Part shown: one piece after another, positions 23,489 through 56,808 of the stretch
Layout of the letters: each line of letters starts with the position of its first letter
How positions within the stretch are numbered: position 1 is the first letter of the stretch
Assembly (NCBI RefSeq): GCF_016756775.1
Contig: NZ_JAERMU010000003.1
Location: 62,001 to 126,000 of the forward strand
Reading direction: 5' to 3'
Source of the DNA: Dryocola clanedunensis subsp. sulfonylureivorans
GTDB taxonomy: Bacteria; Pseudomonadota; Gammaproteobacteria; Enterobacterales; Enterobacteriaceae
Length of the DNA stretch: 64,000 nucleotides
Program-made: the position numbers and the translations under genes
The notes under the pieces: model-generated
Databases searched by the model: none
Seen by the model: the letters and a program-made list of their open reading frames with translations, nothing else
What the model was told of the DNA's origin: nothing

Positions 23489-23641
23489 GATTTCTCCCAA
23501 CGTTGCGTTTTACCTGCTGATGCAAAATAGATGCTCAAAGAGTCAAAAAAAGAAACGTTGATTTATTAATGCGAGCCGTTTCACAATTATTGACTGAACC
23601 CGGCGTCGGTTGCTGATGATAAGGCGCTCGTGCGGCAGCAA

Positions 23642-23656
23642 TTATCAAATTGATAA
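23642..23656. promoter_or_regulatory. Candidate enhancer (UAS) for YgeV, xdh copy
   Basis: TTATCAAATTGATAA is a palindrome with 7-base arms. It lies 142 bases upstream of the -24 box of the xdh promoter. The same TTATC-N5-GATAA form lies 141 bases upstream of the ygfK sigma54 promoter, as expected for an activator binding at a distance. Assignment to YgeV is inference. Confidence 0.55.
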
Positions 23657-23783
23657 ATTCGATACTATTCTCAATTCGATTTACAGGCCTCAGGCAATTC
23701 ACCAAATTATTTCCTGCCGTTTTGTGCGTAAATTTATAACCCCCCTCGCAAAAATAATTCTAAAAAACAGGGTTCCTCATATA

Positions 23784-23799
23784 TGGCACGGGCTTTGCT
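23784..23799 (+). promoter_or_regulatory. Sigma54 (-24/-12) promoter of the xdh unit
   Basis: TGGCACGGGCTTTGCT matches the sigma54 consensus TGGCACG-N4-TTGCW at every fixed base, with GG and GC at the required 10-base separation. Transcription would start near 23810, about 44 bases before the xdh start codon. Confidence 0.85.
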
Positions 23800-23853
23800 T
23801 GAAGTTGAACGATGAATTCACTCTTAGCTCTATTTTTATTTATGGAGAACAGT

Positions 23854-26800
23854 ATGGAAACAACGCTGGTTGGCACTGAAGTTCCGCGCGTTGACGGTGA
23901 AGCAAAGGTTAAAGGCACGGCTATTTATGGTGACGATATCGTCATGAGCGGCATGCTCTATGGGGTATGTCGCTATGCAGATATCGCCGCTGGCCGTCTG
24001 GACACGCTGGATATTAGCGAGGCGGAAAAGGTGCCTGGCGTCGTCTGTATCGCCACCGCCAAAGACGTGCCGGGTGTAGAACGCATCGGCGTCATTATTT
24101 CCGATTACCCGCCGATCGCCAAAGATGAAATCGCCTTCCGTGGCGACGTCATCGCTATTATTGCGGCAGAAAGCTATGAGGCCGCCTGTCAGGCGGCAGA
24201 CCGCATAACGGCAACTTACACACCGTACACACCGATTACCGACCCAGTAGAGGCGCTTAAGCCCGGCGCAAGGTTAATCCACAGCGACACAGAAAGTAAC
24301 GTGATTAACCGACATCATACGGTGAAAGGAGATATAGACGCGGGCTTTTCAGCATCCACGCATATTTTCGAGCGTGATTATGAAGTAGGGTTCCAGGAGC
24401 ATGCATATATAGAGCCTGAATCCATCACCACTTATCTCGATCCTAATGAAAATATCATCACTGTTGCCGGCTCTATTCAAAATGCGCACCGTGTACGGGG
24501 CATTGTTGCAAAATATCTTGGTTTGCCTCAATCAAAAGTCAATGTTAAACGCTCGGTATTAGGGGGCTCATTTGGTGGTAAAGACGATATTATCGATCAT
24601 CTTGCCTGTCGTGCATCCCTGTTAACGAAAATGACTGGTCGCCCGATAAAGTTTACCTATAACCGCGAACAGTCTATGCGCGAAAGTTATAAGCGCCATC
24701 CTTATAAGATGAAATATAAAATCGGTCTGGATGACGAAGCAAAGATCAAAGCAATAAAAATTGACATTATTGCCGACGGAGGGAGCTACGCGGGGCAGAC
24801 TATATTTGTCACCTGGCGCAGTTCTGTGCAGGCGGCGGGGCCCTATAACATCCCAAACGTAAGGGTAGATGTGACCGGCGTCTATACCAATAACAATTAT
24901 ACCTCGGCCTACCGCGGTTACGGTGCGCCGCAGGTCATCTTTGCCAATGAATCACTGATGGATGAAGTTGCAGCGGCTTTCAACATCTCTCCCGTAGAAC
25001 TGCGTCGTCGCAACGTGCTTAAACAAAATGATACCAGCATGGCCGGTCAGCTATTCAGTGAACACACCGTTTCGGCAGAAGAGGTACTTGATCGGGCGCT
25101 CGCCAGCTCGGAGTTTTGCGCAAAGCGCGACCATTATAAGAAGCTGAACGCGAAAAATGGCCCCATCAAGTACGGCATTGGCCTGGCACTAAGCCACCGC
25201 GGCTGTTCGCTAGGGGCTGAAGGGCTTGATGCTTCTTCAGCGCTGATTCAAATCAATGCCGACAGCAGCCTCAACGTCTCCACATCTGTCTCCGAGAACG
25301 GCCAGGGCCTGCAAACCACCATGTCACTCATTGCCGCGGAAGCCTTTGGGCTGGAGCTGGAACAGGTCATGTTCACCGACCCGGCGACCGCCATGATTGC
25401 TGACGGCGGATCGACGGTTGCGTCGCGCGGCACGCTCATGGGCGGACAAGCGGTGCTGAGCGCAGCCAATAAGCTTAAAAATCGCATGCTAAAAGCTGTA
25501 GGCCCGCTCCTTAACGCGAAAAGCTTAGAAGAGCTGGTTTGGCGAAATGGGGAAGTCTTCAATCGCGAGCGGTCAGATTTACGTTTGCCATTCACAGAGG
25601 TGGTCAACAAGACGAAAGCCATCGGCGAGAATCTTTCCGCATACGGCTGGCACGTTGCACCGGACATTCACTGGGACGAGCACAAAGGAACGGGTAGCCC
25701 GTATTTCACCTGGGTCTATGGCTGCCAGATTGCAGATGTCGCTGTCGATACCCGCACCGGAAAGATTACGCTTAATCATGTCACCGCTGTCCATGACGTC
25801 GGTAAAGTCATAAACCGCGTTGGGATAGAAGGGCAGATTTACGGTGGCGTCGTTCAGGGTATGATTGGCTACGGCATGCTGGAAGACTTCAACACCGTGC
25901 ACGGCGAAGTAAAATCAGAAAACTTCGACACCTATCTCTTGCCCACCATTAAAGATGTTCCAGCTATCACGGTCATCCCTGTGGAAAATCATGACAAAGC
26001 AGGGCCGTACGGGGCGAAAGTCATTGGTGAACCGGTGCTGGAGCTTGGTGCAGCAGCGCTGAACAATGCCGTAAGCTTCGCCATCGATCGCTGGAACCGT
26101 CAAATTCCACTGACCCTTGAGCAAGTGCGACTGGGTTACAACCTCAAAAAACCTGAACGGCAGAGTGAGCTACAGGGGGAGTCGAGCGTTAAGAAACAAG
26201 TTTTGCGCATTAATAATATGCAAGTTTGCAACCCTGCCACGCTGGAGGAAGCGCTTGAGGCACTGCAGGAACCGGGTGCAACAGCGATTGCGGGCGGTAC
26301 CGATCAGTTAGTGCAGGCAAGAATGCAGTCCGGCATAACGAAACTGGTCAACATTTCAGGCCTTAACGAGCTTAGCCAGATCGCTGAGGCTGGCGGTGGA
26401 ATGATCGTTGGCGCGGCGGTTTGTTTCAGCGATTTAATTGCCCATCCGGGCGTTGCAGAACGATACCCGCTGCTGATTACCGCCTGTCGGACCATCGGCT
26501 CACTCCAGTTGCGTAACCGCGCGACGATCGGTGGCAACATTGTCAACGCCGCGCCCTGCGCAGACTCCGTACCACCACTGATCATCATGGACGCAGAGGT
26601 AGAACTGCAGTCTACCTTTGGTGTGCGCTACCTGCCGCTGAGCCACTTTATCGAAGCGGGCTACCGTACGGCGCTTAAACCTGGTGAACTCCTGACGCGT
26701 GTTCTTATTCCCGAGCCGCACCCGCAAGTCCAGCAGCATCGCTACTTGCAGCTGGGGCGTCGCAACGCGCTGAACATCACCCGTCAGAGTCTTACAGGAC

Positions 26801-27081
26801 AATTCAGCCTGTCTGCGGACGGCAAGTTAGTCTTTTGTCGTCTGGTTGATGGGGCACTCTTCAGCAAGCCGCAGCGGCTACATGACATCGAAGAGCGCCT
26901 GACAAATCAGGTGCTGTCAGGCGAGCTCATCGAGGCGGTCGGAGAAGTACTCAATACCAAGATGGAGAGCGCTATCGGCGGGCGCTGGTCCGCGCCTTAC
27001 AAGATACCCGTCTATCTCGATATGTTCCGCCAGATGCTGCGCGATGTGATGAACGCAGGAAGTAAAGAGGACGAAAAATGA
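23854..27081 (+). CDS. xdhAB: Xanthine-dehydrogenase-family enzyme: molybdenum and FAD subunits fused
   Basis: A 1075-residue cytoplasmic hydroxylase polypeptide that oxidises a purine (hypoxanthine or xanthine by family and context). Residues 1-765 form the molybdenum-cofactor subunit: GGSFGGKDD (237-245), RGYGAPQ (354-360) and the catalytic-base motif GEP with E726. A linker near 766-788 leads to a CO-dehydrogenase-type FAD domain (789-1075) with GGTD (814-817) and TIGGNIVNAAPCAD (from 891). E. coli makes these as separate XdhA and XdhB. No stop codon or ribosome-binding site lies at the join, so this is a real fusion. GGAGA lies 5 bases before ATG 23854; ATG 23842 is an alternative. The stop overlaps the xdhC start (ATGA). 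Transcribed from a sigma54 promoter. Confidence 0.88.
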   Translation: METTLVGTEVPRVDGEAKVKGTAIYGDDIVMSGMLYGVCRYADIAAGRLDTLDISEAEKVPGVVCIATAKDVPGVERIGVIISDYPPIAKDEIAFRGDVIAIIAAESYEAACQAADRITATYTPYTPITDPVEALKPGARLIHSDTESNVINRHHTVKGDIDAGFSASTHIFERDYEVGFQEHAYIEPESITTYLDPNENIITVAGSIQNAHRVRGIVAKYLGLPQSKVNVKRSVLGGSFGGKDDIIDHLACRASLLTKMTGRPIKFTYNREQSMRESYKRHPYKMKYKIGLDDEAKIKAIKIDIIADGGSYAGQTIFVTWRSSVQAAGPYNIPNVRVDVTGVYTNNNYTSAYRGYGAPQVIFANESLMDEVAAAFNISPVELRRRNVLKQNDTSMAGQLFSEHTVSAEEVLDRALASSEFCAKRDHYKKLNAKNGPIKYGIGLALSHRGCSLGAEGLDASSALIQINADSSLNVSTSVSENGQGLQTTMSLIAAEAFGLELEQVMFTDPATAMIADGGSTVASRGTLMGGQAVLSAANKLKNRMLKAVGPLLNAKSLEELVWRNGEVFNRERSDLRLPFTEVVNKTKAIGENLSAYGWHVAPDIHWDEHKGTGSPYFTWVYGCQIADVAVDTRTGKITLNHVTAVHDVGKVINRVGIEGQIYGGVVQGMIGYGMLEDFNTVHGEVKSENFDTYLLPTIKDVPAITVIPVENHDKAGPYGAKVIGEPVLELGAAALNNAVSFAIDRWNRQIPLTLEQVRLGYNLKKPERQSELQGESSVKKQVLRINNMQVCNPATLEEALEALQEPGATAIAGGTDQLVQARMQSGITKLVNISGLNELSQIAEAGGGMIVGAAVCFSDLIAHPGVAERYPLLITACRTIGSLQLRNRATIGGNIVNAAPCADSVPPLIIMDAEVELQSTFGVRYLPLSHFIEAGYRTALKPGELLTRVLIPEPHPQVQQHRYLQLGRRNALNITRQSLTGQFSLSADGKLVFCRLVDGALFSKPQRLHDIEERLTNQVLSGELIEAVGEVLNTKMESAIGGRWSAPYKIPVYLDMFRQMLRDVMNAGSKEDEK

Positions 27082-27539
27082 AAACGATTGAGCTGAAAGT
27101 AAATGGTATTCGCCTGTCGCGGGAAGTGGATGACAGCCGGAGACTGGTTGATTTCCTGCGTGAAGATCTCCGGCTAACCGGGACGAAAGAAGGCTGCTCG
27201 GTGGGGGAATGTGGTGCTTGTACCGTCATCATGAACGGCAAGGCTGTTTGTTCTTGTCTGATTCTTGCTGTGCAGTGTACCGGAGCAGAAATCACAACTG
27301 TCGAAGCGTTACATCATGACCCAGTAGGAGTGAAGCTGCAAAAGGCGTTCGTGCGCCACGGAGGTACGCAGTGCGGGTTCTGTACTCCGGGTGTGTTGAT
27401 GAGCAGCAAAGCGCTGCTGGATGCTCATCCGCAGCCTTCAGATGAACAAATCTGTGAAGCCCTCGAAGGTAATCTTTGTCGTTGTACCGGTTATCATCCA
27501 GTGATTAAGTCCATTAAGGCCGTCCTTAAAACGGTGTAG
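27078..27539 (+). CDS. xdhC: Xanthine dehydrogenase iron-sulfur subunit
   Basis: A 153-residue subunit with two [2Fe-2S] clusters that carries electrons from the molybdenum site to FAD. The plant-type cluster is CSVGECGACTV (C40, C45, C48) plus C60, and the helical-domain cluster is CGFC near residue 99-102 with CRC near 134-136 (GNLCRCTGYHPV). Start and the previous stop share ATGA, giving coupled translation and a 1:1 ratio with the fused large subunit. It corresponds to E. coli XdhC, which should not be confused with the unrelated XdhC chaperone family encoded at 36407-37243. Confidence 0.94.
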   Translation: MKTIELKVNGIRLSREVDDSRRLVDFLREDLRLTGTKEGCSVGECGACTVIMNGKAVCSCLILAVQCTGAEITTVEALHHDPVGVKLQKAFVRHGGTQCGFCTPGVLMSSKALLDAHPQPSDEQICEALEGNLCRCTGYHPVIKSIKAVLKTV

Positions 27540-27548
27540 TCACTCTTT

Positions 27549-27573
27549 GGCCCCGGCTAACGGGGCCTTTTTT
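27549..27573 (+). terminator. Intrinsic terminator between xdhC and mocA
   Basis: GGCCCCG (27549-27555) pairs with CGGGGCC (27561-27567) around GCTAA and is followed by six T. This is a strong rho-independent terminator ten bases after the xdhC stop, leaving mocA, 12 bases on, to be expressed by read-through or from its own weak promoter. Confidence 0.85.
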
Positions 27574-27585
27574 AAGGACAGAGAA

Positions 27586-28221
27586 ATGAATAACGGACCT
27601 GAGTGCGTCATGCTGGCTGCGGGACTTTCCAGCAGAATGGGGGCATGGAAAATGATGCTGCCCTGGGGTGACACAACCATACTGGATAGCGCGATAGAAA
27701 ATGCGCTGGGCTTTTGCAGTCGCATCATTCTGGTGACCGGGCACCGGGCAGCAGAGCTACATGTTCGCTACGGTGAGCATCCGCAAATCACCCTGGCTTA
27801 TAATGCTGACTATCTAAATGGCATGTTTTCATCGGTGGTTTGTGGCGTGATGCAAACTCGCGGAGAGCATTTTTTCCTCGCACTCGGTGACATGCCCGCC
27901 GTCACGCCCGCCGTCTACGCAAAATTGTGGGCGCAACGTGGGAAATTCTGCATAGTGCCGGAATACAACAGTTACAGGGGGCACCCGGCTTTACTTCCCA
28001 CCGCGATGCGCCGCACTATTCTGGCAGCGCCTGGCGAAACAACACTGAAGCCATTAATGCAGCGCTTTGGCCGGGTAAGTGTTCCGGTTGATGAGCAAGC
28101 GATCCATGAGGACATCGATACACCCGCTCAGTACCATGAATGCTTCCAGGGTTGTGATTTAAAAAATAGAGTTACAAAGTCTCACTTTTTACATCCAGAG
28201 ACTCCAGACCATATTTTTTGA
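27586..28221 (+). CDS. mocA: Molybdenum cofactor cytidylyltransferase MocA
   Basis: A 211-residue nucleotidyltransferase that converts molybdopterin-Mo to the cytosine dinucleotide form used by xanthine-dehydrogenase-type enzymes in E. coli. The signature VMLAAGLSSRMGAWKMMLPW is almost the E. coli MocA (YgfJ) sequence; FFLALGDMP binds metal/nucleotide and GHPALL and DIDTP are the other family motifs. AAGGA lies about 7 bases before the ATG. The C-terminus runs about 20 residues past the usual end and overlaps the 3' end of the convergent ygeV by 50 bases. The terminator just upstream may set it to a low catalytic level relative to the xdh subunits. Confidence 0.9.
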   Translation: MNNGPECVMLAAGLSSRMGAWKMMLPWGDTTILDSAIENALGFCSRIILVTGHRAAELHVRYGEHPQITLAYNADYLNGMFSSVVCGVMQTRGEHFFLALGDMPAVTPAVYAKLWAQRGKFCIVPEYNSYRGHPALLPTAMRRTILAAPGETTLKPLMQRFGRVSVPVDEQAIHEDIDTPAQYHECFQGCDLKNRVTKSHFLHPETPDHIF

Positions 28222-29965
28222 TCTTACGATAAAGCGTGGCGACACCGATGCCCAGTTCTGCCGCAATAATGCGTTTATTAGTCTGGCGAATGAGTGCCTC
28301 CTCAATTAATGTTTTCTCAATAGACTTAAGATTCGCATTATTGTTGAGCACAGTTTCCTTTGTCAGGGGGGATGAATACCCCTGCTGCGAGGCATGGAAA
28401 GAAGGGGGGAGCATTGCGCAATCTATAACTTCCCCCGTAGGGACAATATTAACGAGGTATTCAATTAGATTACTGAGTTCGCGAACGTTGCCCGGCCAGC
28501 GGTAGCGTTCGAAAGCAACAATCACCTCGTTGTTAACACCAGGATATGCTTTACCTATTCTTTGCGAATGTAAGTTAAGGAAAAAATGCATCAGCAGCTC
28601 AATATCACCTTGCCGTTCGTACAAGGGAGGCAGTGGGATGGGGATAACATTCAGTCGATAGAATAGATCTTCGCGAAACTGTCCGTCTGCAATTTTAGAA
28701 TCCAGTTTCTGGTTGGTCGCGGAAATAACCCGAATATCAACTTTTATCGTATGACTGGCACCTACGGGTTGTAATTCTCTGGTTTCAAGAACCCGCAAAA
28801 GCTTAGCCTGTAAAATAAGTGGCATATCACCAATCTCATCAAGGAAAAGCGTGCCACCTTGCGCTGACTGAATAAGACCTATTTTTCCACCGGGTGCGGC
28901 ACCGGTAAAAGCACCTTTGCTGTAGCCAAAGAGTTCACTTTCCAGCAAATTCTCTGGAATAGCCGCGCAGTTAATAGCAATAAAGGGTTTCGTATGACGA
29001 GCACTCAGTCGATGTACTGCTCTGGCCACCACTTCTTTCCCCGTACCGCTTTCGCCAGTGATCATAATACTTGAGGGGCTGCTGGCGACTTGCGTGATAA
29101 GGCGTTTAACCGTCTGCATCTGGTAAGAGTCACCGATAATTTGTTCTATTTTTATTTCGGCGTGGCGCAGCGCTTCATAATCCAGTAAATGTGACTGGTG
29201 AAAGGCAAACAGCAAGAGTCGATGGTTATCCACCAAAAGAAGCTGGCAGGTAAGGGTTTTCTTAATATCGTTGCATTGCAGCAGGTACTGCACAAACCCG
29301 TTTTCCGCAATGGTAGAAAAGGTGAGCGGCTGTAAATCGATGGTCTGGCCCAGTAGGCTCTCTTCGGTAACATTAAGAAGTTTTAGTGAGTTTTTATTGC
29401 ATAAAACAACGCGATTCAAATCATCCAGCACCAGAACGCCCTGGTCCATGGCGGCAATCAGTCGTGAAAAAAGTTGCGTGTCGCGCACGCTGGAATTGGT
29501 ATGTCTGGTCAGATTGCTGATCACCAGCGCTGAAATATGTTTGATATACTGCGTGAAGACCAGACTGTTATCACACAGTCTTTGATACTGTTCAGGATTA
29601 ACCGCAATTAAGCTAATGACCCCCAGACATTGCTCCTCGTGGACAACGGGAACGCCAATAAAAGCCATTTCATGGCAGCAATCCCGGCCATCGCAATCCT
29701 TACACAGAGGGTCAAGCCTTGCGTGCAAAACAATTTTCTCTTTCTTTGATTCAATGACAGAACGTAACAAACTATTATTTGTGTTAGGGACTTTACCTAA
29801 GTCCTGACTATATGTCCCGCTGCCGGCGACGCGAACAAATTGATTATCAATCACCTCTACTTCAAGTTGCAAAACTCGGTGCAATAATTGAGTGAGATGC
29901 GCTACCGTCGCCTGTACTCTTAATAACGTTCCTGGGGTGTCGTGCATGGTTTTTTTATCAGACAT
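28172..29965 (-). CDS. ygeV: Sigma54-dependent transcriptional activator YgeV
   Basis: A 597-residue enhancer-binding protein. An N-terminal sensor region (about 1-270, with a GAF-like first part and PAS-like AMDQGVLVLDDLNRVVLCNKNSL) contains the cysteine set C88-C91-C96-C97 in DPLCKDCDGRDCC. The AAA+ domain has Walker A GESGTGKE (304-311), the sigma54-contacting GAFTGA loop (351-356), GTLFLDEIGDMPL and FREDLFYRLNVIPI. The C-terminal Fis-type helix-turn-helix ends ELGIGVATLYRKIKKYGL. It matches E. coli YgeV throughout and is the only sigma54 activator in the window, next to three sigma54 promoters, so it is very likely their activator. The last 50 bases overlap mocA. Confidence 0.93.
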   Translation of the reverse strand: MSDKKTMHDTPGTLLRVQATVAHLTQLLHRVLQLEVEVIDNQFVRVAGSGTYSQDLGKVPNTNNSLLRSVIESKKEKIVLHARLDPLCKDCDGRDCCHEMAFIGVPVVHEEQCLGVISLIAVNPEQYQRLCDNSLVFTQYIKHISALVISNLTRHTNSSVRDTQLFSRLIAAMDQGVLVLDDLNRVVLCNKNSLKLLNVTEESLLGQTIDLQPLTFSTIAENGFVQYLLQCNDIKKTLTCQLLLVDNHRLLLFAFHQSHLLDYEALRHAEIKIEQIIGDSYQMQTVKRLITQVASSPSSIMITGESGTGKEVVARAVHRLSARHTKPFIAINCAAIPENLLESELFGYSKGAFTGAAPGGKIGLIQSAQGGTLFLDEIGDMPLILQAKLLRVLETRELQPVGASHTIKVDIRVISATNQKLDSKIADGQFREDLFYRLNVIPIPLPPLYERQGDIELLMHFFLNLHSQRIGKAYPGVNNEVIVAFERYRWPGNVRELSNLIEYLVNIVPTGEVIDCAMLPPSFHASQQGYSSPLTKETVLNNNANLKSIEKTLIEEALIRQTNKRIIAAELGIGVATLYRKIKKYGLESLDVKSETL

Positions 29966-30349
29966 AAAAAGTACCTGTAATCGTCAGGAGATTTTTCAAC
30001 TTAATACAAATTGCAAATGCCGTTTTATTGACTCTGTCCTGCTGTAATCTGGCACATTGAGAATCTCATTATGAGAAATCAGAATCGCGTTATCATTCTG
30101 AATCACTGTTTGTTGGCTGCTCGTTAGCATACGTGAAGTTAATTCATCATTTTTCCACTCAAGTGACCTGAATCGTTATCAATGAAATGGCAGTTACTTT
30201 TAATTGCATAGTGAATTCCGACACCCCTCACAAAAATTAACCTGTTTTCTACTACCTAAACGTTCTGGCACGAAACTTGTTACTTCTTAACCCATAAGCA
30301 GAGCGCGCTGCCATGCGCGGATTATTTTCAATCACAGAGGTCAAGTGTC
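29966..30349. other. Divergent regulatory region ygeV / ygeW
   Basis: 384 bases without a gene. They hold the ygeW sigma54 promoter, a small palindrome TCTCATTATGAGA (30064-30076), an inverted repeat TCAGAAT-N9-ATTCTGA (30079-30101), and two imperfect matches to the left half of the TTATC-N5-GATAA element at 30090 and 30176. The ygeV promoter was not identified. Confidence 0.55.
30266..30281 (+). promoter_or_regulatory. Sigma54 (-24/-12) promoter of the ygeW operon
   Basis: TGGCACGAAACTTGTT has a perfect -24 half (TGGCACG) and a -12 half TTGT where TTGC is usual. Spacing is correct. The start of transcription would lie near 30292, about 58 bases before ygeW. Confidence 0.75.
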
Positions 30350-31537
30350 ATGAGTTCAATTGCAAGGCTAATCGAAGCAATTAATCAATTACCATCCGAT
30401 CTACACAGCAAAGACTTTCTTCTTACCTGGGAACAGAGCCAGTGTGAACTACAACAGGTGCTGGGTATTGCAGAAACGCTGAAAAGCTTACGTGCAGAAA
30501 ATATCGCTACGCGAGTTTTCAACAGTGGCCTGGGGATCTCCGTCTTCCGTGATAACTCTACTCGCACACGATTCTCTTACGCGTCGGCACTGAACCTGCT
30601 GGGGCTTGCTCAGCAAGATTTGGACGAGGGGAAATCGCAAATCGCCCACGGTGAAACGGTCCGCGAAACAGCCAATATGATCTCGTTTTGCGCTGATGCC
30701 ATCGGTATTCGCGATGATATGTACCTTGGTGCTGGCAATGCTTATATGCGCGAGGTCGGGGCGGCCCTTGACGACGGCTTTGCTCAGGGCGTCCTGCCCC
30801 AACGTCCAGCGCTTATCAACCTGCAGTGCGATATAGACCACCCGACACAGTCAATGGCGGATTTAGCCTGGCTGAAAGAGCACTTTGGCGGGCTGGACAA
30901 GCTAAAAGGTAAAAAAATTGCTATGACCTGGGCTTACTCACCCAGCTACGGCAAGCCATTATCGGTGCCGCAGGGGATTATCGGCCTGATGACCCGCTTT
31001 GGCATGGACGTTACGTTGGCGCATCCGGAAGGTTATGATTTGATTCCCGACGTGCTGGACGTCGCACGAAATAATGCCAGCCAGAGCGGGGGAAGCTTCC
31101 GTCAGGTGGCCACGATGGAAGAGGCTTTTGAGGGGGCCGACATTGTCTACCCGAAATCCTGGGCACCTTGGCAGGTCATGCAACAACGTACAGAACTTCT
31201 GTACGCCAACGATGACAAGGGTCTTAAAGATCTTGAAAAAGCCTGCCTGAATCAAAATGCTCAACATAAAAACTGGCACTGCACTGAAGCGCTGATGAAA
31301 CGGACCAAAGGTGGCAAAGCGCTGTATATGCACTGTCTGCCCGCAGATATCACGGGCGTGTCTTGTGAAGCTGGCGAAGTCGAAGAGAGCGTATTTGAAC
31401 GTTATCGCATTGCGACTTACAAAGAGGCCAGCTGGAAACCCTACATCATTGCCGCCATGATCCTCGCCCGAAAATACGCCCGCCCAGGTGATGTACTGGC
31501 ACAAATGCTGCGTGAAGCCCAACCTCGAATCAAATAA
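30350..31537 (+). CDS. ygeW: Carbamoyltransferase-family protein YgeW
   Basis: A 395-residue member of the aspartate/ornithine carbamoyltransferase superfamily with unknown second substrate. The carbamoyl-phosphate loop STRTR is at residues 70-74, followed by LQCDIDHPTQSMADL and HCLPADITGVSCEAGEV. It is nearly colinear with E. coli YgeW. GAGG precedes the ATG. Working in the breakdown direction it would phosphorolyse a carbamoylated purine-derived amine or acid to carbamoyl phosphate, which YqeA at the end of the same operon could turn into ATP, CO2 and ammonia; that coupling is inference. Confidence 0.92.
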   Translation: MSSIARLIEAINQLPSDLHSKDFLLTWEQSQCELQQVLGIAETLKSLRAENIATRVFNSGLGISVFRDNSTRTRFSYASALNLLGLAQQDLDEGKSQIAHGETVRETANMISFCADAIGIRDDMYLGAGNAYMREVGAALDDGFAQGVLPQRPALINLQCDIDHPTQSMADLAWLKEHFGGLDKLKGKKIAMTWAYSPSYGKPLSVPQGIIGLMTRFGMDVTLAHPEGYDLIPDVLDVARNNASQSGGSFRQVATMEEAFEGADIVYPKSWAPWQVMQQRTELLYANDDKGLKDLEKACLNQNAQHKNWHCTEALMKRTKGGKALYMHCLPADITGVSCEAGEVEESVFERYRIATYKEASWKPYIIAAMILARKYARPGDVLAQMLREAQPRIK

Positions 31538-31544
31538 GCGACCT

Positions 31545-31563
31545 GTCGCCCGCCGCGGGCGAC
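31545..31563 (+). other. Intercistronic stem-loop ygeW-ygeX
   Basis: GTCGCCCG and CGGGCGAC pair around CCG directly before the ygeX ribosome-binding site. No T-run follows, so it more likely shields or processes the mRNA than ends it. Confidence 0.5.
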
Positions 31564-31581
31564 CCTCATAAGGAGGATTTC

Positions 31582-32772
31582 ATGTCCCGGTTTACGATTC
31601 CGATGAACATTGCTGATAACGCCTGGTTTAACGGTGAGGGAATGGCGCTTTTCTCACAGGAGCCAGCCCTCAAAGCCAGAGCTTTTCATCAGCAGCTTCC
31701 TGGGTATCAGCCTACGCCACTGTACGCCATGAATGCGTTTGCCAAAGCACTTGGCGTGAGTCAGGTGTGGGTCAAAGATGAGTCTCAGCGCTTTGGTCTG
31801 AATGCCTTCAAAATGCTTGGCGGCGCTTATGCCATTGCGCGTCTTTATTGCGAAAAATACCAGCTGAATATCAAAGACTTCTCCTTCGCACAGTGTCGAA
31901 ACTCTCCACGCGAAAAAATGACCTTTGCCACGACGACAGACGGCAACCACGGACGCGGCGTGGCATGGGCGGCAAAAGAGTTAGGCCAACATGCGGTGAT
32001 TTATATGCCCAAAGGTTCTTCCCAGGAGCGTGTCGATCACATTACGCGTTTGGGGGCACAGTGCATCGTTACTGAGATGAACTACGACGATACAGTACGT
32101 CTGACTGAACGTACTGCGGCAGAGCATGGCTGGGAAGTGGTACAGGACACCGCCTGGGAAGGTTATACGGAAATCCCAACGTGGATCATGCAAGGATACG
32201 CGACCCTTGCAGTGGAAGCCGCAAAACAAATGTCCGACGCGCCGACACATGTATTTTTACAGGCGGGGGTCGGTGCGATGGCTGCCGGTGTGCTGGGCTA
32301 TCTGGTAGATATTTATGGCGCTGAAAAACTCCATAGCGTGATTGTCGAACCTGACCGCGCAGACTGTCTTTACCGCTCTTGCCGCAGCGGCAACATGACT
32401 GCGGTTGGTGGTGAAATGAACACCATCATGGCCGGATTAGCCTGTGGGGAACCTAATCCTCTGGGCTGGCCGCTGCTGCGTAATTGCGCCCACCAATTCA
32501 TCTCCTGTGACGATCGTGTCGCAGCACTTGGCATGCGCGTGCTGGGTAACCCATTGCGGGGTGATACCCCGGTCGTGTCGGGAGAGTCAGGGGCCGTCAC
32601 GATGGGCGTGCTGGCTGCTGTCTTGTTCCATCCGCAAAAAGAAGATCTCATGCAACAGCTGGGACTGGACGAAAAATCCCGGGTGCTGTTGATCAGCACC
32701 GAAGGTGACACCGACGTTCAGCACTACCGTGAAGTGGTATGGGAAGGAAAACACAGTATTTCAGGCTGTTAA
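31582..32772 (+). CDS. ygeX: 2,3-diaminopropionate ammonia-lyase YgeX
   Basis: A 396-residue PLP enzyme of fold type II that splits 2,3-diaminopropionate into pyruvate and two ammonia. The PLP lysine is K77 in [15 protein letters not shown], followed by [18 protein letters not shown] and the phosphate-binding [21 protein letters not shown] stands just before the ATG. It matches E. coli YgeX. In the block it would act late, draining a C3 diamine product of purine ring opening into pyruvate and ammonia; the identity of the in vivo substrate is supported by the enzyme family, not by this sequence. Confidence 0.94.
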
Positions 32773-32788
32773 CATCAGGAGCACTATC

Positions 32789-34003
32789 ATGGCTAAAATT
32801 CCGTTTAGTGAAATTGTCGCGAAAGCAGAAAGCTACAAAGCAGATATGACCCGCTTCTTACGCGATATGATCGCCATTCCCAGCGAAAGCTGCGATGAAA
32901 AACGCGTTGTCCACCGCATCAAGGAAGAGATGGAAAAGGTGGGTTTCGACAAGGTTGAAATTGACCCAATGGGAAACGTGTTGGGCTATATCGGACACGG
33001 CCCACACCTCATTGCGATGGACGCTCACATAGATACCGTAGGGATTGGCAATATAAAAAACTGGGATTTTGATCCCTACAAGGGCATGGAAAACGACGAC
33101 ATTATCGGCGGTCGCGGTTCGTCTGACCAGGAAGGCGGCATGGCCTCCATGGTGTACGCGGGTAAAATTATCAAAGATCTGGGGCTGGAGGGGGATTACA
33201 CCCTGCTGGTCACAGGCACCGTTCAGGAAGAAGATTGTGATGGCCTGTGCTGGCAGTACATTATTGAACAGTCGAAAATTCGTCCGGAGTTTGTTGTCAG
33301 CACGGAACCTACAGATTGCCAAATCTACCGTGGCCAGCGCGGGCGTATGGAAATTCGCGTTGATGTGCAAGGCGTCAGTTGCCATGGCTCGGCACCAGAA
33401 CGCGGCGATAACGCGATTTTCAAAATGGGCCCCATTCTCGGTGAGCTGCAGGAGCTGAATAATCACCTTAAGCATGACGAATTCCTGGGTAAAGGAACGC
33501 TCACCGTTTCGGAAATTTTCTTCACTTCACCGAGTCGCTGTGCGGTAGCTGACAGCTGCGCCGTCTCTATAGATCGCCGCCTGACCTGGGGAGAAACCTG
33601 GGAAGGAGCACTGGAAGAGATCCGTTCTCTTCCTGCGGTTAAAGCAGCGAAAGCAGAAGTCAGTATGTATCACTATGAGCGTGCAGCCTGGACAGGCCTG
33701 GTCTATCCAACGGAATGCTACTTCCCGACCTGGAAGGTAGAGGAAGACCACTTCACCGTCAGAACGCTAAGTCAGGCGTATCAGGGACTGTTCCAAAAAG
33801 ATCCTGTTGTTGATAAGTGGACATTTTCCACCAATGGCGTTTCTATCATGGGCCGTCACGGCATTCCGGTCATCGGTTTCGGGCCGGGGAAAGAGCCGGA
33901 AGCTCACGCGCCAAACGAAAAAACCTGGAAGGCTCATCTTGTGACCTGTGCGGCCATGTACGCCGCCATTCCGCTGACTTACCTGGCACAGCGCCAGGGA
34001 TAA
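32789..34003 (+). CDS. ygeY: M20-family metallohydrolase YgeY
   Basis: A 404-residue zinc-dependent amidohydrolase/peptidase of the M20 (ArgE/DapE) family. Metal-site motifs are MDAHIDTV (H80, D82), [12 protein letters not shown], and QEEDCDG. AGGAG lies 7 bases before ATG 32789; the open frame upstream reads through ygeX and is rejected. It is colinear with E. coli YgeY (403 residues). Presumed to hydrolyse an N-acyl or N-carbamoyl intermediate of the purine route; the substrate is not known from sequence. Confidence 0.92.
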
Positions 34004-34016
34004 GATATCTGGTCAT

Positions 34017-34041
34017 GGCGGGTAGGCTCTGTTTACCCGCC
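34017..34041 (+). other. Intercistronic stem-loop ygeY-hyuA
   Basis: GGCGGGTA and TACCCGCC pair around a 9-base loop, ending just before the hyuA ribosome-binding site. Like the one before ygeX it lacks a T-run. Confidence 0.5.
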
Positions 34042-34057
34042 TGAGGAAGGCGAAAAG

Positions 34058-35449
34058 ATGAAACGCTTAATCCAGGGCGGTACCGTTGTCGATGAATGGG
34101 GCGAGTACCGGCAGGACTTGCTTATCGAGAACGAAAGGATCGCAAGCCGCGAAGAGCATATCTCTGCGGATGAAGAGACAGAAATTATCGATGCATCAGG
34201 CTGTCTGGTGATGCCCGGAGGCATTGATGTGCATACGCATTTCAACATCGACGTCGGGCTTGCCCGCAGCTGTGATGACTTTTACTCCGGTACGCGAGCC
34301 GCAGCCTGTGGCGGCACAACCACCATCATTGACCACATGGGTTTTGGCCCGCAAGGTTGTAGCCTGCACCACCAGCTGGCGCTCTATCACGAATACGCAG
34401 CCGGAAAAGCAGTCATCGATTACAGCTTCCACGGTGTCATCCAGCATATTGATGAAGAGATCCTCAGTGAAATGGCGTCGATGGTCACGCAGGAGGGGAT
34501 CAGCAGCTTTAAAATTTATCTAACCTACCAGTACAAACTCGATGACGCCGCCATCCTGCAAGCTTTTGCCGAGCTGAAACGGGTGGGGGCTTTAATTACC
34601 GTCCACCCGGAAAATGATGCGGCCATCCGCTCCCGCGTTGAACAATTTGTTCGGGAAGGGAAAACGGCGGCAATCTGGCATGCTCGCAGCAGGCCCATAG
34701 CCTGTGAGGCAGAAGCTATCTCACGCGTTATCCATCTTGCCCAGCTGGCAGGGAATGCGCCGCTTTATATTGTGCACCTCTCTAATGGCCCCGGCCTTGA
34801 CGCGCTCCGGTGTGCTCGTCGGCAGGGGCAGCCTGTGTGGGTAGAGACCTGTCCACAATATCTTTTGCTCGACGAAAGCAGCTACGAACAGCCCGATGCG
34901 CTGAAATTTATCCTTAGCCCGCCGCTGCGGGAAAAAGCGCAACAGGCACTTTTGTGGGAGGGAATTTGTGACGGGTCGATAGATACAGTTGCGACCGACC
35001 ACTGCACCTTCCCATGGTCGCAGCGCCTCTTACTTTCCGATGGCAATTTTACTCGCTGCCCGAACGGTCTCCCGGGGGTGGAAAACCGTATGGCGCTGCT
35101 GTTTAGCACCGGTGTCGCAACCGGATTGGTGACACCGTCACGTTTTGTTGCTTTAACCAGCAGTAACCCGGCCAAACTCTTTGGGTTATGGCCGCAAAAA
35201 GGCTCCCTCCAGGTAGGTGCTGATGCGGATATCGTGCTGTTTGCACCGCACAAAACGGGCATCATTCGCCACGAATCACTGCACGATAACGTCGACTACT
35301 CGCCGTATGAAGGCATGGCGCTGCGTGGTCTGCCGGTGATGACAATATCCCGAGGAGAAATCGTCTGGCGTAATGGGTTATTCACCGGGCGAGCCGGACA
35401 CGGACGTTTTTTACATCGTTTGCCATTTACAACAAGGGACATGACATGA
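34058..35449 (+). CDS. hyuA: Hydantoinase/dihydropyrimidinase HyuA (YgeZ)
   Basis: A 463-residue cyclic amidohydrolase with a binuclear metal site. DVHTHF supplies H59 and H61, the carbamylated lysine is K152 in SSFKIYLTY, and TVHPEN, YIVHLSNG and VATDHC supply the remaining ligands. GAGGAAGG precedes the ATG. It matches E. coli HyuA (D-phenylhydantoinase) and would open a five- or six-membered cyclic ureide formed in purine breakdown. The stop overlaps yqeA (ATGA), so the two are coupled. Confidence 0.92.
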   Translation: MKRLIQGGTVVDEWGEYRQDLLIENERIASREEHISADEETEIIDASGCLVMPGGIDVHTHFNIDVGLARSCDDFYSGTRAAACGGTTTIIDHMGFGPQGCSLHHQLALYHEYAAGKAVIDYSFHGVIQHIDEEILSEMASMVTQEGISSFKIYLTYQYKLDDAAILQAFAELKRVGALITVHPENDAAIRSRVEQFVREGKTAAIWHARSRPIACEAEAISRVIHLAQLAGNAPLYIVHLSNGPGLDALRCARRQGQPVWVETCPQYLLLDESSYEQPDALKFILSPPLREKAQQALLWEGICDGSIDTVATDHCTFPWSQRLLLSDGNFTRCPNGLPGVENRMALLFSTGVATGLVTPSRFVALTSSNPAKLFGLWPQKGSLQVGADADIVLFAPHKTGIIRHESLHDNVDYSPYEGMALRGLPVMTISRGEIVWRNGLFTGRAGHGRFLHRLPFTTRDMT

Positions 35450-36378
35450 AAAAAAGAATAGTGCTGGCGCTCGGGGGAAATGCGCTCGGTGAGGACCTCG
35501 CACAGCAAATGCACGCGGTTAAAACTACAGCAAAGGCTATAGTAGACCTGATTGCCGAAGGGCATGAACTGGTGATAACCCACGGTAACGGGCCGCAGGT
35601 TGGGATGATCCACCAGGCGTTTGAAGCCGCTGCGATGCAGCATCACGGACAGGTATTGCCCATGTCAGTGTGTGTTGCACTAAGCCAGGGTTACATTGGT
35701 TATGATTTACAAAATGCATTGCGGGAAGAGATGCTCAATCGCGGAATTGATAAGCCGGTAACGACGCTTGTTACCCAGGTTCGGGTAGATAAACACGACC
35801 CGGCGTTTGTTGAACCAAGTAAGCCAATCGGTTCCTTCCTGAGCAAGAGCGAAGCGGAAAAACTGATGTCGCAGGGCATCGCCGTCCGTGAAGATTCCGG
35901 TCGCGGCTGGCGGCGCGTCGTTGCTTCACCTAAGCCTAAAGATATTATAGAGAAAGCGTCGGTCAAAGCGTTGCTTGAGGCCGGTCATGTCGCGATCACC
36001 GTCGGTGGGGGCGGTATACCTGTGATTGCCATCGGCCATCATCTCAAAGGAGCCAGTGCGGTCATTGACAAAGACTGGGCCAGCGCCGTACTGGCAGAGA
36101 TGATCGATGCAGACCTGCTGATTATTCTTACCGCCGTAGAAAAAGTGGCGATTAACTTTAATCGCCCCAATCAACAATGGCTCGACAGCATGACCCTGGA
36201 CGATGCCAGACGTTATGTGAACGAGGAGCAGTTTGCCAAAGGATCAATGTTGCCGAAGGTGGAAGCGGCAATGCACTTTGCCGCATCGGCCCCGGGACGT
36301 GAAACGCTCATTACCCTGCTTGAAAAGGCAAGCGAGGGGATTGCCGGTAAAACCGGTACCCGCCTGCGTAATTTGTGA
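35446..36378 (+). CDS. yqeA: Carbamate kinase-like YqeA
   Basis: A 310-residue amino-acid-kinase-fold enzyme making ATP from carbamoyl phosphate and ADP. Motifs: LALGGNALG at the start, VITHGNGPQVGMI, KPIGSFLS, GWRRVVASPKPKDI and TVGGGGIPVIA, then DKDWASAVLAEMIDADLLIILTAVEKVAINF. It overlaps hyuA by four bases at the end of the ygeW-ygeX-ygeY-hyuA-yqeA operon, so ATP gain would be the final step of that pathway. Full length, all family motifs intact. Confidence 0.94.
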   Translation: MKKRIVLALGGNALGEDLAQQMHAVKTTAKAIVDLIAEGHELVITHGNGPQVGMIHQAFEAAAMQHHGQVLPMSVCVALSQGYIGYDLQNALREEMLNRGIDKPVTTLVTQVRVDKHDPAFVEPSKPIGSFLSKSEAEKLMSQGIAVREDSGRGWRRVVASPKPKDIIEKASVKALLEAGHVAITVGGGGIPVIAIGHHLKGASAVIDKDWASAVLAEMIDADLLIILTAVEKVAINFNRPNQQWLDSMTLDDARRYVNEEQFAKGSMLPKVEAAMHFAASAPGRETLITLLEKASEGIAGKTGTRLRNL

Positions 36379-36406
36379 ACCAATGTGAGACGCCGTACTT
36401 ATCGGC

Positions 36407-37243
36407 TTAAATGGCGGCGCAGACCGCCATTTCTTTCTTTTCCGGCTCGGCTAGTGATTCGCTAATGTTTGCCTTGTGCTTCTTTCCTTTGGTGACCAGC
36501 AGCAGCTCGGCCATCACGCTAATCGCAATTTCTTCTGGCGTTTCCGCACCAATATCCATGCCTACAGGTGAGCGGATATGCGCAATCCTCTCTTCCGTTG
36601 CCCCTTCCTTTGCTAATTGCTGTCGAAAATGCTGGGCTTTGCGACGGCTGGCTAACAGGCCCAGGAAGCGTGAAGGGCGGTCTGATAAGGCATTTAAGGA
36701 CTCTTTGTCCTGATGATTGGTGGCAATGATAAGCAGACTATCTTCGTCGAGAGGCAGACTATCAATCAGGCTGGTAAAGGTTTCGCCGAACCGGCGGTGG
36801 CAGCTTTCCGGGAGTTCCGGATGATCGAGATTCGCCTGCCAGGTATCCACGACGTGTACCTCAAAATTTAATGGTATCGCCAGTTGTGCAATCGCGCGAT
36901 TAACGTGGCCACCGCCAATTAAAAACAGTGAAGGGCGCCGGGGATAGACGGCAATATGCACCGTCATTGCGCCTCCACAGTCAGAGCCAACAGCATGTTC
37001 GCCCTGTTGGGCCATACGGCCATGAAACAGCTGGGACTTTCCGTCTTTTAAGGCCTGACGGGCCTTCTCCAGTACCAGCCGCTCCATCATACCTCCACCA
37101 ATTGTACCGGCCATTTTGCCATCCTCGCTGACAATCATGCTTGCCGAATGGCGCGGCGTCGAGCCGCGGCTTTCAATTAGTTGGATCAACGCAAAACTCT
37201 GATTTCGGATCTCACACTGGCCTGCAAGTTGAAATAGCGTCAT
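36407..37243 (-). CDS. XdhC/CoxI-family molybdenum-cofactor chaperone
   Basis: A 278-residue protein of the XdhC/CoxF family that binds, sulfurates and inserts cofactor into xanthine-dehydrogenase-type enzymes. The N-terminal domain has LIQLIESRGSTPRHSASMIV and GTIGGGMMERLVLEKARQAL; the C-terminal dinucleotide fold starts LFLIGGGHVNRAIAQLA and ends SPVGMDIGAETPEEIAISVM. GAGG lies 7 bases before ATG 37243. It stands where E. coli has the longer two-part YqeB (about 540 residues as I recall), so here only the chaperone part is present. It is convergent with yqeA and its product serves the fused Xdh. Confidence 0.88.
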   Translation of the reverse strand: MTLFQLAGQCEIRNQSFALIQLIESRGSTPRHSASMIVSEDGKMAGTIGGGMMERLVLEKARQALKDGKSQLFHGRMAQQGEHAVGSDCGGAMTVHIAVYPRRPSLFLIGGGHVNRAIAQLAIPLNFEVHVVDTWQANLDHPELPESCHRRFGETFTSLIDSLPLDEDSLLIIATNHQDKESLNALSDRPSRFLGLLASRRKAQHFRQQLAKEGATEERIAHIRSPVGMDIGAETPEEIAISVMAELLLVTKGKKHKANISESLAEPEKKEMAVCAAI

Positions 37244-37343
37244 TTCGGTTCCTCTGCTTCGCTTTAATAACTTCTTATCATGTTCCTGCAATTTTCATGC
37301 CCCGTGCTTAAACGGCAGAATACGGGCGGAACAGCGTGATGAC

Positions 37344-37358
37344 TTATCATTACGATAA
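37344..37358. promoter_or_regulatory. Candidate enhancer (UAS) for YgeV, ygfK copy
   Basis: TTATCATTACGATAA has arms TTATC/GATAA and lies 141 bases upstream of the -24 box of the ygfK promoter. The xdh promoter has the matching element at 142 bases. Confidence 0.55.
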
Positions 37359-37484
37359 TTACTTTATTAATATGAAAATGAGGCTTTCTGAAATAGAGCC
37401 AGCGGGGATCCCATAGCGATCTGAAAGGCCAACCTTGCGATCGCACTCACATAATTATTGACTGATGCAGTCTGGCAGAGATTA

Positions 37485-37500
37485 TGGCGCAGTTGTTGCT
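37485..37500 (+). promoter_or_regulatory. Sigma54 (-24/-12) promoter of ygfK-ssnA-permease
   Basis: TGGCGCAGTTGTTGCT has GG and GC 10 bases apart with TGGC and TTGCT in the fixed places of the sigma54 consensus. The transcript would start near 37511, about 47 bases before ygfK. Confidence 0.78.
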
Positions 37501-52409: not shown

Positions 52410-52853
52410 ATGGATTTATTTGGATTAATTAAAGACGCTGGCGCGAAAATCTGGAATTCGGTTACGGATAAAAGCGAACGTGAGGATGCCGTTCAGAAAC
52501 ATATTACTGACCTGGGGATTGAGGGGGCAGAAGGTGTTTCCGTGCAAATTTCCGATGAGGGCGAAGCGACTGTATCAGGTGAAAACATCACTGCCGCTCA
52601 GAAGGATAAAATTCTGGTCGCCGTAGGTAACATTGCCGGTGTGTCCTCGGTTATTGACAAAATGGCCACAGCGGAAGGCCCTGGTAGCGCAACGTTTTAT
52701 ACCGTTAAAGCCGGGGACAATCTCAGCAGCATCGCTGCACATGTTTATGGCCATGCCGGCAGCTATATGAAAATTTTTGAAGCGAATAAGCCAATGCTTT
52801 CTCACCCTGATAAAATTTATCCAGGTCAGGTTTTGATTATTCCAGCACAGTGA
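52410..52853 (+). CDS. Kbp-like BON-LysM protein (YgaU paralogue)
   Basis: A 147-residue cytoplasmic protein resembling E. coli Kbp (YgaU), which binds potassium. It begins MDLFGLIKDAGAKIWNSVTD; a BON domain (about 25-85) with EGVSVQISDEGEATVSGENI and KDKILVAVGNIAGVSSV is followed by a LysM domain (about 98-146) FYTVKAGDNLSSIAAHVYG...IFEANKPMLSHPDKIYPGQVL. AAGGGA precedes ATG 52410. The many differences from Kbp and the location suggest a paralogue. It is followed after 28 bases by a YidB-like gene in the same direction. Confidence 0.85.
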   Translation: MDLFGLIKDAGAKIWNSVTDKSEREDAVQKHITDLGIEGAEGVSVQISDEGEATVSGENITAAQKDKILVAVGNIAGVSSVIDKMATAEGPGSATFYTVKAGDNLSSIAAHVYGHAGSYMKIFEANKPMLSHPDKIYPGQVLIIPAQ

Positions 52854-56040: not shown

Positions 56041-56808
56041 TTACGGCTTGCCGCCCATAATCGTTTGCAGCGTTTCGGCGTCAGGCAGCCCCTGATGCTG
56101 CTGAAGACGGCCGTTATCATTCAGATAATAGATAGATGGCGTCGCGCTGCCTCCTAATTCATCCATCAGAGCCAGATTGCTTTTCAGCGCCTCATTGATT
56201 TCCGGCGTGATGGCATCCGGTTTTTTCAGCGCCAGCTTCCCCTGGCTGTTTTCATAATCCGCCAGCGTTTTGGCCGGATCTTTCGCCATCATGATCGCCG
56301 CTGCTTTCTGCGCGCTGTCCGGGCGCAGCATTCCAACCATCAGCACCCGCAGCTGCACCTTGCCGGACTTAAGCCACGGCTGGGCGTTTTGCCAGAACTG
56401 CGTACAGTACGGGCAGTAGGGATCGGCAAAGGCATAAACAATCCGCGGTGCGTCGGCTCTCCCGGCGGCTATCCAGTGATTTTTCTCAAGCTTCTGCCAC
56501 ATCTCTTTGGCCATCGGCGCGTAGACCCACTTCTCGACCTGAGCATCGCTAAGATTCTTGCCGCCCGCATCCACCATATTCCCCATGATGGCATGCTGCT
56601 TGTCCGGGGTCAGATATACGGTGGTCCCTTGCCCCTGGTACTCCATGGCATAGCCCTGAAGGTCGCCCGGCGCTTTAAACTCACCTTTCAGCACAAAACC
56701 CTGCTTTTGCAGCGCCTCTAACGGGGCGGGAAGTTTCGTCTCAGCGGCCAGCACGCTGCCGCTGGCAATAAGCGACAGCGAGAGGAGCCAGCTTGATGCA
56801 ATTTTCAT
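56041..56808 (-). CDS. dsbG: Thiol:disulfide interchange protein DsbG
   Basis: A 255-residue periplasmic disulfide isomerase/reductase that guards single cysteines from over-oxidation together with DsbD in E. coli. Residues 1-22 form a signal peptide ending VLAA. The dimerisation domain LPAPLEALQKQGFVLKGEFK and TTVYLTPDKQHAIMGNMVD is followed by a thioredoxin domain with CPYC at 132-135 (FADPYCPYC) and the cis-proline in GSATPSIYYLND. All match E. coli DsbG. It precedes no dsb partner; acuI lies 17 bases upstream in the same direction. Confidence 0.93.
   Translation of the reverse strand: MKIASSWLLSLSLIASGSVLAAETKLPAPLEALQKQGFVLKGEFKAPGDLQGYAMEYQGQGTTVYLTPDKQHAIMGNMVDAGGKNLSDAQVEKWVYAPMAKEMWQKLEKNHWIAAGRADAPRIVYAFADPYCPYCTQFWQNAQPWLKSGKVQLRVLMVGMLRPDSAQKAAAIMMAKDPAKTLADYENSQGKLALKKPDAITPEINEALKSNLALMDELGGSATPSIYYLNDNGRLQQHQGLPDAETLQTIMGGKP

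Follow-up and report, generated by a model that had tools for sequence, protein, structure and literature searches.

Palindromic sites at the sigma54 promoters of an anaerobic purine degradation cluster are predicted enhancers for the activator YgeV

Palindromes and promoters of the cluster

The stretch of Dryocola clanedunensis subsp. sulfonylureivorans DNA analyzed here (the window, 64 kb in full length) holds a cluster for anaerobic purine/urate degradation. Its plus strand carries an xdhA-xdhB fusion (1089 aa), xdhC and mocA, the genes ygeW, ygeX, ygeY, hyuA and yqeA, and ygfK, ssnA and a xanthine permease gene. The minus strand has ygfS-like and aegA/ygfT-like genes, a short yqeB-like gene divergent from ygfK, and ygeV. 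The element under study is a palindrome, TTATC-N5-GATAA in its exact form, which stands upstream of sigma54 promoter elements of the cluster and is proposed to be read by YgeV (Table 1).

The window contains three exact copies of the palindrome where 0.09 are expected, and three were reached in none of 100 shuffles. An earlier note on this DNA placed two of them 142 and 141 bases before the -24 boxes of xdh and ygfK, and both are found there (TTATCAAATTGATAA at 23642 and TTATCATTACGATAA at 37344, with boxes starting at 23784 and 37485). Both boxes are near the sigma54 consensus (GG-N10-GC type). The palindrome at 37344 is flanked by divergent sigma54-like boxes, that of yqeB at 56 bp and that of ygfK at 141 bp. 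For the ygeW region, the note reported left-half matches alone and supposed a degenerate pair of sites. The first statement is wrong: a complete, diverged copy, ATCTCATTATGAGAA, is present, and the match at 30090 is a weaker full-length site, TTATCATTCTGAATC. The pair was thus roughly right, its main member at 30063-30077 having been overlooked. ATCTCATTATGAGAA is the counterpart of the conserved ygeW site of relatives, which reads ATATCAATATGAGAA in Escherichia coli K-12. The third exact copy (56114-56128) lies outside the cluster. It was rejected as a cluster site together with a copy at 52799, as no cluster link was seen for either in the window and the latter lies within an open reading frame (ORF).

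Table 1. Regulatory features of the window and the gene of the proposed binder
Feature	Position	Strand	Placement	Score or remark
Degenerate, putative sigma54-like element before aegA/ygfT, GAGCATCTATTTTGCA	23521..23536	-		weak match, 13.9
Predicted palindromic enhancer, TTATCAAATTGATAA	23642..23656		between divergent aegA/ygfT-like (-) and xdhA (+); 142 bp before xdh -24 box	21.5 bits, p=0.003 vs 300 shuffles
Possible second, weak site, TTCTCAATTCGATTT	23668..23682		116 bp before xdh -24 box	7.6 bits
xdhA sigma54 promoter element, TGGCACGGGCTTTGCT	23784..23799	+
ygeV, proposed binder	28172..29965	-		sigma54-dependent enhancer-binding protein; AAA+ domain and Fis-type helix-turn-helix (HTH)
Predicted ygeW palindromic enhancer, ATCTCATTATGAGAA	30063..30077		203 bp before ygeW -24 box	19.3 bits, p=0.003
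Second, weaker full-length ygeW site, TTATCATTCTGAATC	30090..30104		27 bp beyond ATCTCATTATGAGAA
ygeW sigma54 promoter element, TGGCACGAAACTTGTT	30266..30281	+		unusual -12 GT, as in K-12 ygeW
sigma54-like element of divergent yqeB-like gene, GGGCATGAAAATTGCA	37287..37302	-	56 bp from palindrome
Predicted palindromic enhancer, TTATCATTACGATAA	37344..37358		between yqeB-like (-) and ygfK (+); 141 bp before ygfK -24 box	16.3 bits, p=0.003
Second, weaker site, TTATTAATATGAAAA	37364..37378		20 bp nearer ygfK promoter	10.8 bits
ygfK sigma54 promoter element, TGGCGCAGTTGTTGCT	37485..37500	+

The ygfT element of K-12 is likewise degenerate, yet it is bound by sigma54 in chromatin immunoprecipitation sequencing (ChIP-seq; PMC4591121).

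The YgeV protein of the window is 52% identical to that of K-12 and matches the AAA+ sigma54 domain (PF00158, 1.6e-72) and HTH_8 (5.1e-07). Among 295 genomes of the family, YgeV is present in all 46 that bear YgfK (one of the 46, G167, being partial), so no YgfK genome lacking YgeV was found to serve as a control. Genome G139 has a YgeV fragment and no YgfK. No further YgeV was detected at E<=1e-120 among 369 genomes of the class. Both proteins are absent from the three genomes of the same genus that were sampled (G065, G188 and G265), and the cluster is therefore patchy in the genus. Four cysteines of the N-terminal domain of YgeV (C88, C91, C97 and C113 in window numbering) are invariant in 14 YgeV sequences, which suggests that this domain may be metal- or redox-sensing.

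A 13-mer, AATTATTGACTGA, occurs on the same strand in two of the cluster intergenic regions (23585-23597 and 37453-37465) and nowhere else in the 5.1-Mb genome. A shorter form, TTATTGACT, is found at 30025 in a third intergenic region. In nine related loci of the window type, no upstream sequence agrees with the 13-mer at 11 or more of 13 positions. It is perhaps the site of a second regulator.

A wider motif in relatives and its spacing

The exact pattern TTATC-N5-GATAA is too narrow, because many copies read TTCTC..GAGAA or are mixed, with unequal halves such as ATATC..GAGAA and TTCTC..GATAA. The full motif is TTMTCA-N3-TGAKAA. In the cluster-carrying enterobacteria it precedes the sigma54 boxes of ygeW and ygfK and those of the majority of xdhA and uacT/ygfT genes, and in Photobacterium it also precedes that of ygeW. 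Upstream of ygeV, all 30 loci taken around YgeV orthologues, that of the organism's own genome among them, contain a sequence that agrees with TTMTCANNNTGAKAA in at least 11 of the 12 positions it specifies.

Besides the organism's own, 46 genomes have a YgeV orthologue; for a quantitative comparison, 20-kb regions were taken from 40 of them (G228, G274, G167, G093, G230 and the partial G139 being left out). Together with the window, K-12 and Photobacterium these make 43 loci, which 8-mer overlap reduces to 35 groups. The 34 ygeW/ygeX sites from outside the window alone served to train a symmetric matrix, which was then run on the other promoters. At ygfK, which played no part in training, a site was found in 28 of 30 dereplicated loci at p<=0.01 and in all 30 at p<=0.05 (shuffle); at xdhA, equally outside training, the counts are 11 and 14 of 17. 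Sites were also found at 35/35 ygeW/ygeX promoters (34 of these being the training set), at 5/7 uacT promoters and at 5/5 ygfT promoters, the last in an intergenic region common with uacT or xdhA. The site was missed at two uacT genes, one of them the permease gene of the window, whose upstream neighbour ends close by. The scan of ygeW, xdhA, ygfK and ygfT orthologues that the earlier note had proposed thus finds the motif enriched upstream of these genes. At 15 bits or more, the 37,474 bp of target promoters hold 74 sites and the remaining 680,296 bp of these loci hold 22, of which 16 represent one recurrent copy inside yqeC (see below). A site beside mocA in the window-type loci L143, L148 and L150 was dropped, as no convincing sigma54 box was seen there.

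The distance from site to box was tabulated where the sigma54 score was at least 16 and the site reached at least 10 bits (82 rows). It spans 112-142 bp at xdhA, 111-184 bp at ygfK, 124-157 bp at uacT and 138-238 bp at ygeW (with one outlier at 277), and is 185, 186 and 256 bp at the three ygeX loci. In relatives alone the ranges are 112-134 bp at xdhA and 111-184 bp at ygfK. The contention that equal form and equal distance lie beyond chance therefore holds for the form, in view of the shuffles, and fails for equal distance as a rule, the match of 142 and 141 being partly luck.

The distances at xdhA and ygfK follow a 10.5-bp period (n=9 collapsed values, R=0.86, p=0.0003). With all five genes the period is still detected (n=22, R=0.53, p=0.0015), and it is xdhA and ygfK that supply the signal. 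For these figures, a script collapsed distances lying within 2 bp of one another into a single value for each gene, which does not wholly eliminate the effect of shared ancestry; an earlier version, collapsed by hand and without ygeX, gave n=19 and p=0.002. Such phasing would be predicted for an activator that faces the polymerase on a DNA loop, and the loop may be less constrained at the longer ygeW distances. Because of helical phasing, values such as 142 and 141 can recur and equal distance is not required. Where a second site is present, the best one is separated from the first by 19-21 bp in 9 of 10 xdhA promoters, by 20-21 bp in 6 of 15 ygfK promoters and by 27-29 bp in 12 of 24 ygeW promoters.

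The specificity of the motif was assessed on 19 other sigma54 promoters of K-12, selected by published box sequences (one intragenic, the other 18 drawn from the 38 sense intergenic promoters outside the cluster that Table 1 of PMC4591121 lists). Around none of the 19 does a site exceed 9.2 bits within 300 bp in either direction, and the five cluster promoters score from 11.0 (xdhA) to 22.0 (ygfK). The K-12 genes ybiY, aegA and rcsDB were considered as extra targets and rejected, with no site at 11 or more of 12 positions in the stretches examined. In the organism's own genome, the exact palindrome has 26 copies in 5.1 Mb, compared with 2 for the reversed control pattern, and a single exact copy is consequently not specific. 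Elsewhere in the same genome (L155:3775-3809), two motif-like sequences, TTATCAATATGATAG and TTCTCAAATCGAGAA, lie 20 bp apart between arginine-deiminase-like and YhcH-like genes (named by eye), with no sigma54 box nearby.

A copy inside yqeC and sites of distant homologues

In K-12, an intragenic sigma54 promoter within yqeC drives yqeB, and section 12 of the report describing it names no activator (PMC4591121). This promoter of Bonocora 2015 can be recognised at the equivalent place in all 16 dereplicated yqeC loci, with a -24 part that is degenerate in some (L123, L125). To this we add a YgeV-type palindrome, which every one of the 16 loci holds 242 bp downstream of the -24 element and 159-203 bp before yqeB (K-12: L031:16400-16414). 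The 242-bp spacing was obtained directly by script in 15 loci; in L125 it comes from the second-best box match, the top match lying elsewhere. The helical phase of the site is set by the coding frame and is uninformative. When the 262 five-codon windows of a codon alignment are ordered by synonymous-codon identity, that of the palindrome comes first (0.95; mean 0.46, standard deviation 0.15), and the two at the promoter come 4th and 10th. At the palindrome the encoded amino acids differ between loci (Ser/Tyr, Glu/Asp) and follow the half-site variants in 14 of the 16, L118 and L128 being mixed. The synonymous conservation and the residue variation that tracks the half-sites indicate selection on the DNA. 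On the simplest reading, the yqeC copy would be a YgeV enhancer placed downstream of its promoter and within a coding sequence. In the window no yqeC was detected, and this intragenic copy belongs to the relatives.

Natural downstream enhancers are found at sigma54 flagellar promoters (the FlbD ftr sites, FlrC). The yqeC copy resembles them in lying within the transcribed region, but differs in that this region is an upstream protein-coding gene.

Copies of the motif near sigma54-like boxes were also found in four Firmicutes loci with YgeV homologues (33-38% identity). The search of genome contigs returned mainly other AAA+ activators, and loci L032-L036 alone were used. In Clostridium (L033, with xanQ/uacT/xdhABC-like genes) a copy stands 154 bp upstream of a box; more copies follow downstream of that box, and one at 3920 has no box. 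Copies occur at 122 and 101 bp in Peptostreptococcus (L034), at 185 and 143 bp before a ygeX-like gene in Desulfotomaculum (L035), and at 177 bp, about 5 kb from the homologue, in Brevibacillus (L036). The counts in L033 to L036 are 7, 3, 2 and 2, against 0.75, 0.90, 0.20 and 0.20 expected.

A second enterobacterial bacterial enhancer-binding protein, a YgeV paralogue of 35-39% identity, adjoins ygeX-like/ygeY-like genes (L179-L191; 13 genomes at 37-39% identity were used). The HTH end of the one paralogue aligned (L180), GIATLYRKIKQY, is near-identical to that of K-12 YgeV, GIATLYRKIKKY. The sites of the two proteins are alike in their half-sites (TTATCA/TGATAA), in their placement between divergent genes and in the sigma54-like box, seen in the seven paralogue loci checked; they differ in the spacer, which is 3 for YgeV and 4-7, mostly 4, for the paralogue. 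Perfect half-site pairs with spacers of 4-7 occur in all 13 paralogue loci, often two or three to a region. In 11 of the 13 loci a spacer of 4 gives the best pair or ties for it, and in the remaining two it reaches 11 of 12 positions; spacer 3 is never perfect, reaching 11 of 12 positions in L185 and L186. For YgeV orthologues, a spacer of 3 gives the best match, in some cases tied with other spacers, in 33/35 ygeW/ygeX regions and 45/47 xdhA/ygfK regions. Spacer length may be what discriminates between the two proteins in the cell.

A candidate enhancer for YgeV

Sigma54 enhancers, such as those of NtrC, NifA, NorR and PspF, are short inverted repeats some 80-250 bp from the -24/-12 box, often paired and read by a Fis-type HTH. 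The palindromes of the window share with them the dyad form and the distances (142, 141 and 203 bp), and are set apart by the half-site TTMTCA and the 3-bp gap. The class is already known, and the YgeV motif would be a new member of it. In agreement with the earlier note, no binding motif for YgeV (also named IsrR, PMC9426417) was found in the portion of the open-access literature covered.

We consider it likely, with a probability of roughly 0.85, that YgeV, the sigma54-dependent AAA+ activator of the cluster, uses the palindromes as its enhancers (upstream activating sequences). A Fis-type HTH dimer of YgeV would read both halves of TTMTCA-N3-TGAKAA, and the bound protein would loop to the sigma54-RNA polymerase waiting at the -24/-12 box and spend ATP to open the ygeW, xdhA and ygfK promoters. 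The divergent aegA/ygfT and yqeB promoters are perhaps opened likewise. The earlier proposal of an enhancer for a Fis-type activator gains support from the performance of the ygeW-trained matrix at ygfK and xdhA, from the concentration of sites in target promoters, from the phasing, from the 19 controls, from the co-occurrence of YgeV with YgfK and from the copies 101-185 bp from sigma54-like boxes in the Clostridium, Peptostreptococcus and Desulfotomaculum loci. Published sigma54 binding of the K-12 boxes and the YgeV iModulon, both described below, also favour it. Computation establishes the motif itself, its conservation, its phasing at xdhA and ygfK and that co-occurrence; YgeV as the binding protein, the looping and the signal are inferred.

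Published data on E. coli concern the same regulator. The cluster genes are listed under a YgeV iModulon (PMC12132413), and the targets xdhABC, ygeWXY-hyuA, ygfK-ssnA-ygfM-xdhD, ygfT and uacT are shared with our proposal (PMC12132413, PMC9426417). Unlike the present work, these sources give no binding site in the parts consulted, and the role described there for IsrR is in indole and locus of enterocyte effacement (LEE) regulation, with direct action left open. Sigma54 occupies the K-12 boxes of xdhA, ygeW (an odd TTGTT), ygfK and ygfT and the box within yqeC by ChIP-seq (PMC4591121), and ygeV-ygeW is listed by RpoN genomic SELEX (gSELEX; PMC8743547).

Several observations weigh against the assignment to YgeV. 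No significant phasing was detected for ygeW, ygeX and uacT alone (13 collapsed values, R=0.31, p=0.29). The xdhA promoters of L139, L142 and L145 have no significant site, with sigma54 scores of 16.2, 14.0 and 14.7 compared with 16.7 for K-12 xdhA, and the K-12 xdhA site itself, at 11.0 bits, is barely over the best control (9.2). No site was found near K-12 ybiY and rcsB, which are in the YgeV iModulon. The site carries about 17 bits, too few for uniqueness in a genome, and 62 near matches occur in 5.1 Mb. Ten stretches out of these were inspected in the organism's own genome. One of them (L160, 1972-2129) has TTATCATCGTGATAA 142 bp before a good sigma54-like box, TGGCACCGGTCTTGCG, the same distance as at xdhA. 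The pair is taken for chance, because both parts lie within one unrelated ORF (1659-2618, 319 aa), and it shows that motif-box pairs can so arise. A copy 154 bp from a weaker box in L161, also within a reading frame, was rejected, and the other inspected stretches have no convincing sigma54 box.

The strongest alternative, which we nevertheless hold to be unlikely, is that the palindrome is the operator of another regulator of the same genes, for instance a purine- or anaerobiosis-responsive repressor or activator, and that YgeV binds elsewhere. The motif does stand in places without a sigma54 box, such as the two sites 20 bp apart upstream of the arginine-deiminase-like gene. At the cluster promoters, however, the copies are paired with sigma54 boxes, and they were not found at the 19 other K-12 sigma54 promoters. 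In the window, the cluster genes that were scanned included no other named regulator. YgeV goes with YgfK in 46 of 46 genomes, and a paralogue with a near-identical HTH end adjoins the same half-site at a different spacer.

Far less probable is that the palindromes arose by chance in AT-rich intergenic DNA, with the equal distance a coincidence. The 26 exact copies in the genome, the failure of the identical distance to be kept between species and the chance-like 142-bp pair within an ORF speak for this. Against it stand the shuffles, none of which gave three copies, the presence of a site in 30/30 ygeV loci and 30/30 ygfK promoters, and the synonymous conservation in yqeC. For the motif, chance is refuted by its conservation, while the equality of 142 and 141 may itself be a coincidence. 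That the inverted repeat is an RNA hairpin and not a protein site is just as improbable: the dyads are perfect and the yqeC copy lies within the transcribed leader of yqeB, but the ygeW, xdhA and ygfK sites, being upstream of the promoter, fall outside the transcript, and mismatched halves would pair incompletely, yet fit two tolerated half-sites.

Beyond the enhancer role of the palindromes for YgeV, we regard it as an even bet that an old YgeV-type family, spanning Proteobacteria and Firmicutes, uses one half-site, TTATCA, with regulons split by spacer (3 for YgeV, mostly 4 for the paralogue), and that yqeB is in addition driven from a coding-embedded enhancer 242 bp downstream of the intragenic sigma54 promoter. 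The near-complete N3 pairs in two paralogue loci and the lack of recognised purine genes in the Peptostreptococcus and Brevibacillus loci weigh against it. If it is true, yqeC carries both halves of a regulatory device under DNA-level selection.

As an orphan activator, YgeV is connected with the anaerobic breakdown of uric acid and purines in gut enterobacteria, and the literature also links it to indole signalling. With a defined motif, tests can be aimed directly at its regulon and its signal, and the intragenic yqeB promoter described earlier gains a candidate activator. The motif also offers a case of paralogues that may be distinguished by spacer length.

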